Shown here one piece after another: positions 44,715 to 47,388 of a DNA stretch of 61,846 nucleotides. Source of the stretch: Ignavibacteria bacterium. GTDB taxonomy: Bacteria; Bacteroidota; Ignavibacteria; Tepidaquicellales; OLB5. The position numbers and the translations under genes were made by a program. The stretch is from the NCBI GenBank assembly GCA_030835025.1, contig JAUQWS010000109.1:1-61846 (forward strand). Reading direction: 5' to 3'. Under the pieces are notes generated by a model. The model saw nothing but the letters and a program-made list of their open reading frames with translations. It searched no databases and was not told the DNA's origin. The first letter of the stretch is position 1; the number at the start of each line of letters is the position of its first letter.

Positions 44715-44873
44715 GTGAAACGTACATTTCAGCCAAGCAACCGTAAACGGAAGAATAAACACGGTTTTAGGGAAAGAATGGCAACAAAGAACGGCAGAAG
44801 AGTAATTGCCAGCCGCAGGGCTAAGGGCAGAAAAAAACTCACAGTCAGCGATGAGACGAAGTTTACCAGGTAA
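44715..44873 (+). CDS. rpmH: 50S ribosomal protein L34
   Basis: A 52-residue protein of the large subunit, too short for most ORF lists. GTG at 44715 is preceded by AGGAG at 44705-44709, and the protein begins [20 protein letters not shown], continuing [20 protein letters not shown], the family hallmark. The C-terminus has a short extension. It is followed 9 nt later by rnpA. It lies in the canonical rpmH-rnpA-yidD-yidC block, but dnaA, often upstream, is absent from this window. Confidence 0.97.
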
Positions 44874-44882
44874 ATCCCGCAA

Positions 44883-45316
44883 GTGGTGAATAAACGATTT
44901 ACATTGAGACGCGAAGAAATACTGAGGGGATTCGGACTTTTTGAAAGTATCCTTTCAGATTCAAAAAGAATTGATTGCAGAAATTTGACGGCTTTTTTGA
45001 GTTATTCAGATCTGGAAACCGACTTTCCTGTTAAGGTCGGTTTTTTGTTGTCAAAAAAAAAATCAAAAAAGCTCACGATCGCAATCGCCTGAGAAGGTTA
45101 TTGCGAGAAGCTTACAGGCTGAACAAGTTAGAATTGCTTGATGAAGTAGAGTCAGGAAGTGTTAAGTTAAGAATATTGTTATCCCTTTCTAATAAAGCTT
45201 ACGCTGAATATGACAAGATTGAATTTGCTGAAGTATCCCGTGATATGATTGAGATCCTCCAAGTAATAAAGAATGAATATTCAAAAACCGGAAAGGTCAT
45301 TTCCGGAAATAAATAA
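44883..45316 (+). CDS. rnpA: Ribonuclease P protein component, split by a -1 frameshift
   Basis: RnpA assists the catalytic RNA of RNase P in tRNA 5' maturation. The N-terminal part reads in one frame from GTG 44883 (alternative GTG 44886) to [13 protein letters not shown] and would stop at 45090-45092. The essential signature [16 protein letters not shown] is in the -1 frame, ending at 45316. Joining the frames at TCA AAA AAG (45063-45071) gives about 144 residues of intact RnpA. The upstream A run (45053-45062) has ten As; one extra A would also restore the frame, so assembly or sequencing error is possible. The position between rpmH and yidD leaves no doubt of the identity. Confidence 0.9.
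45065..45106 (+). other. Candidate -1 frameshift signal in rnpA
   Basis: A AAA AAG at 45065-45071 is the dnaX-type slippery heptamer and is in the right zero frame. Seven nt further, TCGCAAT (45079-45085) pairs perfectly with ATTGCGA (45100-45106), a 7-bp hairpin with a 14-nt loop at the usual stimulator distance. The run of ten As at 45053-45062 could also permit polymerase slippage. Confidence 0.4.
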
Positions 45317-45540
45317 TGAAATATCTTAACCCTAAATACTTACTCATTATCCTGATAAAGATATACAAGTATGCAATTTCACCTCTTTTCCCGCCATCCT
45401 GCCGGCACTATCCAACATGCTCGCAATATGCAATTGAGGCTCTTGAAAGGCATGGATTTTTCAAGGGAGGTTATCTTGGGGCAGTAAGGATCCTCAAATG
45501 CAATCCGTTCTTTAAAGGCGGGTACGACCCCGTTCCGTAA
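45316..45540 (+). CDS. yidD: Membrane protein insertion efficiency factor YidD
   Basis: A 74-residue amphipathic protein that helps insertion of inner-membrane proteins. The motifs [44 protein letters not shown] and [13 protein letters not shown] are those of YidD. Its ATG overlaps the rnpA stop by one base (TAATG). yidC follows after 36 nt. The tight coupling to the frame-2 end of rnpA means that yidD translation would be linked to ribosomes that have shifted frame; this is inference. Confidence 0.95.
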
Positions 45541-45576: not shown

Positions 45577-47388
45577 ATGGATAGAAATTCGATAATAGGT
45601 TTTGTTTTAATAGGTGTAATCCTGATAGTATGGCTGTATTTCCAAAATCAGAATTCTCAGCAAAAACAGCTGGAAGAACAAAAGAAGAAACAGACCGAAC
45701 AGCAGATACAGGTTCCGGATACAACTAAAAAGAACATTCCGCCAGTAGACACGGTAAAAAAGTCAGTACAAGCTGATACAGTTACCAAAAATGCAGTTGT
45801 ATCTGAAAAGTACGGTTCGCTTTTTGGCAGATTTGAAAAAGGTGAAGATAAAGTTATTATTATCGAAACTGACAAGTACCATGCGGAATTCTCTACCAAA
45901 GGCGGAGCACTGATCAAATATGAAGTTAAGGGATTCAAAACATGGGATGGATACCCGGTCCAGTTGTTAAAACTCGAGAAAGGCGGACAGCTTAACCTTA
46001 TTTTTACTTCGACTGAAGGTAAATTAATAAACACAAAAGAACTTTATTTTAACACCGATTATAAACCCTGGGAAAGAGTCGATTTGACCCGCGGTGCAAG
46101 AGAATTCAAGTTGGTTTACGAAATGCCAATTGATTCCGGCGGCGCAAGAATTGTGAAGACATTTACATTCACAAATGACTCCTACATGTTTGGGGCTGAA
46201 GTTGACCTTCAGAATTCTTCAAAATACGTTTCAAACTTTGAATACCAATTTGCTTTCGAGAATTCACTTAAGCTCACGGAATACCGCAGCGACGGTGAAG
46301 GCAGTCATGCAGATGCATTTGCCGAAATGGGTGATGAGCTGGAAGTACTGAACGTTACTGACAAGGATGAACCTATCAAATCAGATCTTAACGGTACTAC
46401 GAACTGGGTGAGTTCCAGGATTAAGTATTTTACAGTGTTTCTAATTCCTGAGGGAAAGAAGGGCGACGGCTCGTATATCACCGGAACATATTATGAATTA
46501 CCGCAAAAAGGATTTGAGAAGGATTATTCAATTGCGGTTAAAATGTCTATCAAAAATGAAAATGCCGCAAAAAGCAAGTTCAATATATACTTAGGTCCGG
46601 TTGATTACGAGATATTGAAAAGCTACGATATGAACCTCCAGTCAACAATGAGGTTTTCTCTTGATTTTCTTGTCAGACCTATTGCACAATATGCAATATT
46701 ACCGTTTTTTCTTTTCATCCATAAATTCATTTCAAACTGGGGAATTGTTATCATAATATTCTCAATTGTGATGAAGATCGTTTTAACGCCTTTTACGCGT
46801 TACCAAATGAAATCCATGAAAAAAATGGGTGAATTGCAGCCGAAGATGAATGCGCTTAGGGAAAAGTATAAAGATGAGCCGCAGAAACAACAACAGATGC
46901 TTATGAAGCTGTACAAGGAGGAGAAGATCAATCCTGCAGGCGGCTGTTTGCCTATGCTGCTTCAATTACCGATACTGTACGCACTCTTTGGAGTATTCAG
47001 TTCAACTATTGAGCTAAGGCAGGCTTATTTCGGTTTATGGATACACGATTTGGCTGTTCCCGACGTAATTGTGCAACTGCCGTTCCAGATCCCTTTGTTC
47101 GGGATTGATTATCTTTCGGGTTTGGCTTTATTAATGGGAGTAACGATGTTCATTCAGCAGAAAATGACAGTCAAAGACCCCAAGCAAATGGCTATGGTTT
47201 ATATAATGCCGATCATGCTGACTTTTCTTTTCACTACATTGCCGGCCGGACTTAACCTGTATTATTTTATGTTTAACCTGTTTTCAATAATAGAGCAGTA
47301 CTTTGTTACAAAAAAGGGTAAGAAACTGGGTGAAGAAGAAGCAGTTATTGAACAGCAGAAACAATTGAAATACAAAGGCAAGAAATAG
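45577..47388 (+). CDS. yidC: Membrane protein insertase YidC
   Basis: Insertase and foldase for inner-membrane proteins, working alone or with SecYEG. The 603-residue protein begins MDRNSIIGFVLIGVILIVWLY (first helix), followed by a Gln/Lys-rich linker and a large periplasmic P1 domain (about 75-350). The conserved core (about 365-585) has LTPFTRYQMKSMKKMGELQPKM, CLPMLLQLPILYALFGVF and a last membrane segment FSIIEQYFVTKKG. The basic C-terminal tail KGKKLGEEE to KYKGKK probably contacts ribosomes. It ends at a bidirectional terminator. Confidence 0.96.
   Translation: MDRNSIIGFVLIGVILIVWLYFQNQNSQQKQLEEQKKKQTEQQIQVPDTTKKNIPPVDTVKKSVQADTVTKNAVVSEKYGSLFGRFEKGEDKVIIIETDKYHAEFSTKGGALIKYEVKGFKTWDGYPVQLLKLEKGGQLNLIFTSTEGKLINTKELYFNTDYKPWERVDLTRGAREFKLVYEMPIDSGGARIVKTFTFTNDSYMFGAEVDLQNSSKYVSNFEYQFAFENSLKLTEYRSDGEGSHADAFAEMGDELEVLNVTDKDEPIKSDLNGTTNWVSSRIKYFTVFLIPEGKKGDGSYITGTYYELPQKGFEKDYSIAVKMSIKNENAAKSKFNIYLGPVDYEILKSYDMNLQSTMRFSLDFLVRPIAQYAILPFFLFIHKFISNWGIVIIIFSIVMKIVLTPFTRYQMKSMKKMGELQPKMNALREKYKDEPQKQQQMLMKLYKEEKINPAGGCLPMLLQLPILYALFGVFSSTIELRQAYFGLWIHDLAVPDVIVQLPFQIPLFGIDYLSGLALLMGVTMFIQQKMTVKDPKQMAMVYIMPIMLTFLFTTLPAGLNLYYFMFNLFSIIEQYFVTKKGKKLGEEEAVIEQQKQLKYKGKK

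Follow-up and report, generated by a model that had tools for sequence, protein, structure and literature searches.

The window, that is, the whole 61,846-nt stretch of DNA analysed here, carries the RNase P protein gene rnpA in two reading frames (Table 1). RnpA is normally essential and is made from one frame. The gene order is rpmH, rnpA, yidD and yidC, all on the plus strand; the three neighbours are named after their sequences. The frame -1 stop of rnpA and the start of yidD share one base. The frame-0 ORF ends 37 nt past the first A of a run of ten As (A10), which is the sole run of nine or more As or Ts in the 61.8-kb window.

Table 1. Features of the rnpA locus, in window positions.
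Feature	Position	Strand	Remarks
rpmH (ribosomal protein L34)	44715-44873	+	52-aa ORF; upstream neighbour of rnpA
Whole two-frame rnpA	44883-45316	+	frame 0 plus frame -1
rnpA frame-0 ORF, N-terminal half	44883-45092	+	GTG start, 69 aa; stop at 45090-45092
Upstream hairpin, 5' arm AACCGACT	45017-45024	+	upstream of A10; fold and covariation
Upstream hairpin, 3' arm GGTCGGTT	45035-45042	+	upstream of A10; fold and covariation
rnpA frame -1 ORF, C-terminal half with RNR motif	45035-45316	+	open frame; PF00825
T6 tract 3' of the upstream hairpin	45041-45046	+	terminator-like layout; partly paired in the fold
A10 run, invariant putative slippage site joining frame 0 to frame -1	45053-45062	+	conservation
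A6 run after T[TC], also invariant	45065-45070	+	makes A_AAA_AAG in the window
Downstream hairpin TCGCAAT/ATTGCGA	45079-45085 / 45100-45106	+	perfect in the window, unconserved
yidD	45316-45540	+	downstream neighbour of rnpA
yidC	45577-47388	+	downstream neighbour; used for fetching relatives

The frame-0 half alone scores 16.2 bits against the PF00825 profile (profile positions 1-53), under the cut-off of 22.3, and the frame -1 half scores 37.7 bits (positions 45-105). Joining the halves at the A run raises the score to 56.0 bits over positions 2-104 of 109, with the RNR motif included. Against TIGR00188 the joined product reaches 34.9 bits, slightly below that profile's own cut-off of 38.35. 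The initial annotation had placed the N-terminal half in one frame and the RNR half in the -1 frame, and these scores, together with the same split in all 15 family genomes examined, bear this out. Two further details that it gave are also correct: A AAA AAG lies at 45065-45071 in the zero frame, its first A being at the third codon position, and the arms of the downstream hairpin pair at 7/7 positions in the window.

The same split is found throughout the family. A PF00825 match is present in 13/13 genomes of the genus, mostly starting at profile positions 45-48 or crossing stops, and each of the 13 genus loci read has exactly A10, which is where the frame changes. Both further genera of the family have A10 and the split too, bringing the count to 15 of the 15 family genomes examined. 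The sister family has rnpA in one stop-free frame in 28 of 29 genomes, the 29th being without a match. The split of rnpA in the window, with its -1 frame change, is confirmed as real, and it goes beyond chance because A10 is the only run of nine or more in the window and the same break recurs in all 15 genomes. Since every family gene is split and the sister-family genes are not, the break most plausibly dates from the base of the family, where it would have arisen once and then been kept. An A run can exist without a split, because an A11 run sits inside the intact rnpA frame of one sister-family gene (L030, G031:C225). This in-frame A11 could possibly slip away from the full product.

A search of the class for rnpA matched 279 of 294 genomes. 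When the 22 low-scoring genomes were re-examined, 21 were stop-free in the match and one, G174, had a stop; among the matches listed, at least this one split rnpA lies outside the family. The G174 gene (L240, G174:C6:42500-44500, minus strand) is split at A9, at the same Lys motif and in the same direction. G174 is the sole genome examined of its family.

The 15 family genes have 46% to 91% nucleotide identity, with a median of 62%. Read in frame 0, the part before the upstream hairpin differs by 0.333, 0.259 and 0.520 at the three codon positions; read in frame -1, the part after the slip differs by 0.443, 0.279 and 0.619. Each side therefore evolves as coding sequence in the frame in which it is read. 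At the slip columns the differences are 0, 0 and 0.035. Lysine columns 60-62, which form A10, and 64-65, which form A6, are AAA in 15/15 genes each, and the codon of Ser 59 is TCA in 15/15. Among the seven other lysine columns that hold 8 or more Lys, six contain both AAA and AAG, and the seventh, column 77, is invariably AAG (9/9). By parsimony there are 17 AAA/AAG changes in 78 leaves elsewhere and none in 75 at the slip site, where 16.3 would be expected; the probability of none is about 8e-8, a rough value, as the tree was built from rnpA itself, excluding the hairpin and slip columns, and its position for row L015 conflicts with the genus assignment. The run is thus conserved beyond the demand of the protein, and a run of at least nine As stands at the frame junction in every gene, as in programmed transcriptional realignment. 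The heptamer A_AAA_AAG is present in 6/15 genes, including those of both other genera, and A_AAA_AAT in the remaining 9/15, so that the constant element is A10, not A_AAA_AAG, although A6 is invariant too. The frame-0 stops lie 25 to 67 nt past the first A of A10, at 37 nt in 11/15 genes.

The full rnpA product very probably depends on recoding at A10, by one route or the other. The initial annotation had likewise held that the full protein needs recoding, and this is supported by the lineage-wide split, the single locus per genome and the lack of an alternative start. There is somewhat better than an even chance that RNA polymerase is the main slipping machine. It would slip on A10, giving some rnpA mRNAs a run length that fuses the frames, for example by one extra A. 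Ordinary translation of these mRNAs would produce whole RnpA (..SKKKIKK..RNR..), and the remaining mRNAs would produce a truncated product lacking the RNR motif. Ribosomal -1 slippage on A_AAA_AAA within A10 would lead to an identical protein and may contribute as well. Taken as a whole, a two-frame rnpA whose complete product is obtained by recoding at A10, presumably through polymerase slippage, is the best explanation and a probable one. A remark made in passing in the initial annotation, that the ten-A run offers transcriptional slippage, has proved to be the better lead. Nothing in the analysis points to the regulated synthesis of an RNase P subunit that it had also proposed.

Run lengths were compared between 346 ORFs (378 kb) of the window's genome and within-gene synonymous shuffles. 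Runs of A7 number 76 against 103.5 expected and are reduced in all three frames. The deficit is also found for A8 (22 against 43.1), A9 (2 against 9.9) and A10 or longer (0 against 6.1), as well as for T8 (5 against 12.3) and T9 or longer (0 against about 4.6). The in-frame heptamer A_AAA_AAG is hardly reduced (48 against 56.6 expected, sd 6.9), and A6G beginning at the first codon position is more frequent than expected (98 against 82.6). Because long A and T runs are avoided in every frame, a slipping polymerase, of RNA or of DNA, is indicated rather than the ribosome; avoidance independent of frame is also what replication slippage would be expected to give. The whole genome, both strands included, has 52 runs of A9 or longer (46 A9, 5 A10 and 1 A14), 23 of them within long open frames. 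A10 is thus no rarity genome-wide, which counts against the slippage explanation. What stands out is its fixation across the family in a lineage that otherwise avoids long A runs. A split pattern is flagged at 4 of the 52 runs, of which rnpA was judged the only convincing case: in two of the other three a long open frame lies opposite, and the third has several overlapping open frames, so these were left uncounted. A general loss of frame fidelity in the genome was rejected, as rnpA is the sole convincing split. Seven of the 52 runs lie near the start of one contig, within its first 13 kb (G000:C69, about 3.1-13.1 kb), perhaps a foreign island.

Ribosomal -1 frameshifting as the main route is a less likely reading but a serious one. 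Slippage of tandem tRNA-Lys on A_AAA_AAA would join the frames, and the A6 heptamer would offer a second chance. Both A_AAA_AAA registers of A10 are in the zero frame, the complete A_AAA_AAG extends to both other genera, and the invariance of A6 in all 15 genes, unneeded for slippage on A10, fits a second ribosomal slip site. The window also resembles E. coli dnaX in having the A_AAA_AAG heptamer in the right frame, and a dnaX-type layout had been claimed for it in the initial annotation. The relatives do not uphold this layout. The final G of the heptamer is lost in 9/15 genes, and no AGGAG-like stimulator or other Shine-Dalgarno sequence, such as dnaX has, was seen by eye at 45030-45065 of the window. 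The downstream hairpin, which pairs at 7/7 positions in the window, pairs at 6/7 and 5/7 in two relatives and at 2-4/7 in 12, and was rejected as a stimulator, being complete only in the window among the 15. In the fold test described below, the strongest windows other than the upstream hairpin are those of the family at +15 and +60 downstream, with mean z of -1.14 and -1.01 and 6/15 genes below -1.5 in each, a weak signal. The slight reduction of in-frame A_AAA_AAG beside the avoidance of long runs in all frames also argues against the ribosome. Of the findings by which the initial annotation could have been refuted, neither another A count nor an uninterrupted rnpA occurs within the family, where the A10 split is present in 15/15 genes, although the sister family is uninterrupted; the heptamer and hairpin are not conserved.

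It is very unlikely that two polypeptides made from the two frames assemble as a split RnpA. Both halves are conserved, and in frame -1 an ATT or ATC, a rare start codon, is found at +9 in 15/15 genes. Between the upstream stop and the RNR motif, however, this frame has no ATG, GTG or TTG in any of the 15, and a separate start for the second half was ruled out on this account. The halves moreover join within one motif (SKKKIKK..RNR), and a start codon would not require the site to stay fixed as a run of As, as it has. A second intact rnpA was not found in the family genomes; each has a single locus, the two matches in G014 overlapping at one locus. RNase P RNA (rnpB) is present in 14/15 family genomes, the exception being a genome that is 75% complete. 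One family genome, G011, has two full-length RNase P RNA matches (G011:C214:2897-3332 and G011:C117:14151-14549), which may be contamination or a real second rnpB.

Phase variation, in which changes in the DNA run length would switch cells between an intact and a broken rnpA, is still less likely. With a normally essential RnpA the consensus should show the intact length, and instead it shows A10 in 15/15 genomes. The reading draws on the tendency of A10 runs to replication slippage (PMC1088944). An error made in sequencing or assembling the homopolymer, which the initial annotation had regarded as the main alternative, could account for one genome, as single-base errors of this kind are common; it is excluded as a general explanation and has hardly any probability left, as exactly A10 is found in 15/15 genomes from separate records, two of these assemblies comprising only 2 and 10 contigs, and no such break occurs among 28 sister-family genes. 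For the family the error reading is refuted; in G174, a lone genome, an error is possible. Decay of an rnpA no longer needed, of which a frameshift would be the usual first sign, is just as improbable in view of the open and conserved C-terminal frame with its third-position bias and the retention of rnpB.

No report of rnpA recoding was found in the open-licence literature searched. Slippage on A runs is of a kind already known, and rnpA is a new gene for it. According to PMC3711429, nine species have a two-ORF dnaX with A10, attributed to programmed transcriptional realignment (Antonov et al. 2013). This dnaX is, like rnpA, a housekeeping gene in adjacent ORFs with a -1 shift at the DNA level, joined at A10; its short product is used too (tau/gamma), whereas the short rnpA product lacks the RNR motif and has no known use. 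In the family itself dnaX is a single frame of 567-593 aa in 14/15 genomes, the 15th giving no match, and was rejected as a parallel split. The dnaX of Thermus thermophilus, as described in PMC5009743, slips on A9, with mixed mRNA lengths and about half of the product full-length. It shares with rnpA a run of at least nine As; the full-length Thermus product is in frame, whereas the templated length of rnpA leads to the truncated product. In Citrobacter rodentium tssM1, A11 precedes a premature stop and As added to the mRNA restore the full protein (PMC4256274), but tssM1 is an accessory secretion gene and rnpA an essential one, split in a whole family. PMC3017870 describes A-tract frameshifts in Blochmannia and Buchnera, some in essential genes (dnaX, dnaG, pth), which are proposed to be corrected by transcriptional slippage; some of the poly-A frameshifts are conserved between species, and an earlier study is cited there for 30% full-length transcripts. 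Those are reduced symbiont genomes with 114-153 coding tracts of A9 or longer, unlike the 3-Mb genome here, which avoids such runs.

Evolutionarily conserved cases of recoding in non-mobile chromosomal genes are few in the account of PMC5009743. With a family that apparently depends on slippage for its RnpA, a core RNA-processing gene would join them. If so, an essential gene can remain dependent on slippage for as long as a family has existed. Its members are exposed to mis-annotation of rnpA as broken.

The upstream hairpin is followed by T6 and ends 10 nt before A10. The minimum-energy fold extends its stem to 13 pairs. T6 is present in 14/15 family genes, the exception being L014, and its Ts fall partly inside the stem. 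Folding of 48 nt at the hairpin was compared with synonymous-codon shuffles in both families. The mean z is -2.21 for the 15 family genes, 12 of which fall below -1.5, and -3.25 for the 28 sister-family genes, of which 24 do so. In these fold tests some sister-family windows began one codon early; the arm-pairing counts used the corrected anchor. In 14 other windows along rnpA the mean z ranges from -1.14 to 0.66 (family) and from -0.80 to 0.33 (sister family). When the 3' arm is kept constant, the best-matching 5' arm pairs at 7.80 of 8 positions in family genes, where shuffles give 6.63, and at 7.46 in sister-family genes, where shuffles give 6.10. Among 25 distinct arm pairs, 92.5% of the cells are paired, a percentage that leans high because best pairing was the criterion for choosing the 5' arms, and 6/8 pairs change on both sides. 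Covariation of the arms is 0.555, compared with 0.298 in shuffles (none of 500 reached it), and does not exceed 0.151 when the arms are slid. This is a GC-rich stem kept by compensating changes, as expected of an intrinsic terminator or attenuator. A consensus terminator scan did not flag the hairpin, whose Ts fall within the stem.

On our reading the upstream hairpin is present in 39 of the 43 rnpA genes of the order, unsplit ones included; it is absent from L014 in the family and from L032, L036 and L040, which belong to one sister-family genus. Because unsplit genes carry it, the hairpin predates the split. Hairpin and frameshift are separable, since unsplit genes have the hairpin and the split L014 is without it, and a role as a dedicated frameshift signal was rejected on the same grounds. 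A slippage site in a Roseiflexus insertion sequence also has a hairpin upstream of the slip run, but that hairpin is adjacent and required (PMC5009743), unlike the one in rnpA, which is 10 nt away, absent from a split gene and present in unsplit ones. No adjacent, required 5' hairpin of this type is thus found in rnpA. The hairpin (45014-45045 in the window; in L017-L044, the 48 nt before the SKK codons) seems to dictate Ser-Pro or Thr-Asp before KVGF.

With its U-rich tail, the upstream hairpin resembles an attenuator. It most likely acts on transcription, although the chance of this is put a little short of even. Situated within rnpA and downstream of rpmH, for which the need is far greater, it might serve as a pause, an attenuator or a weak terminator. 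Hairpin, U tract and A10 could conceivably form one transcriptional device, in which the attenuator would set passage and slippage the fraction of whole RnpA, so that supply is throttled; this reading, drawn from the arrangement of the three elements, is doubtful. If it is true, RnpA supply is perhaps adjusted to the speed of the polymerase or to the availability of ATP, and slippage-dependent rnpA arose at least twice (A10 in the family, A9 in G174). The covarying hairpin within rnpA across the order is a separate and testable candidate regulatory element.

A hairpin at this position is not general outside the order and is strong in a few loci. In the wider class, 40 of the 50 loci fetched through yidC could be scored and have a mean z of -0.62, with 10 below -1.5; 22 of the 27 loci from the rnpA search could be scored, with z from -1.6 to 1.3. 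Two more distant Ignavibacteria MAGs have strong hairpins of other sequence in the same place (L124, z -6.0; L095, z -3.4).
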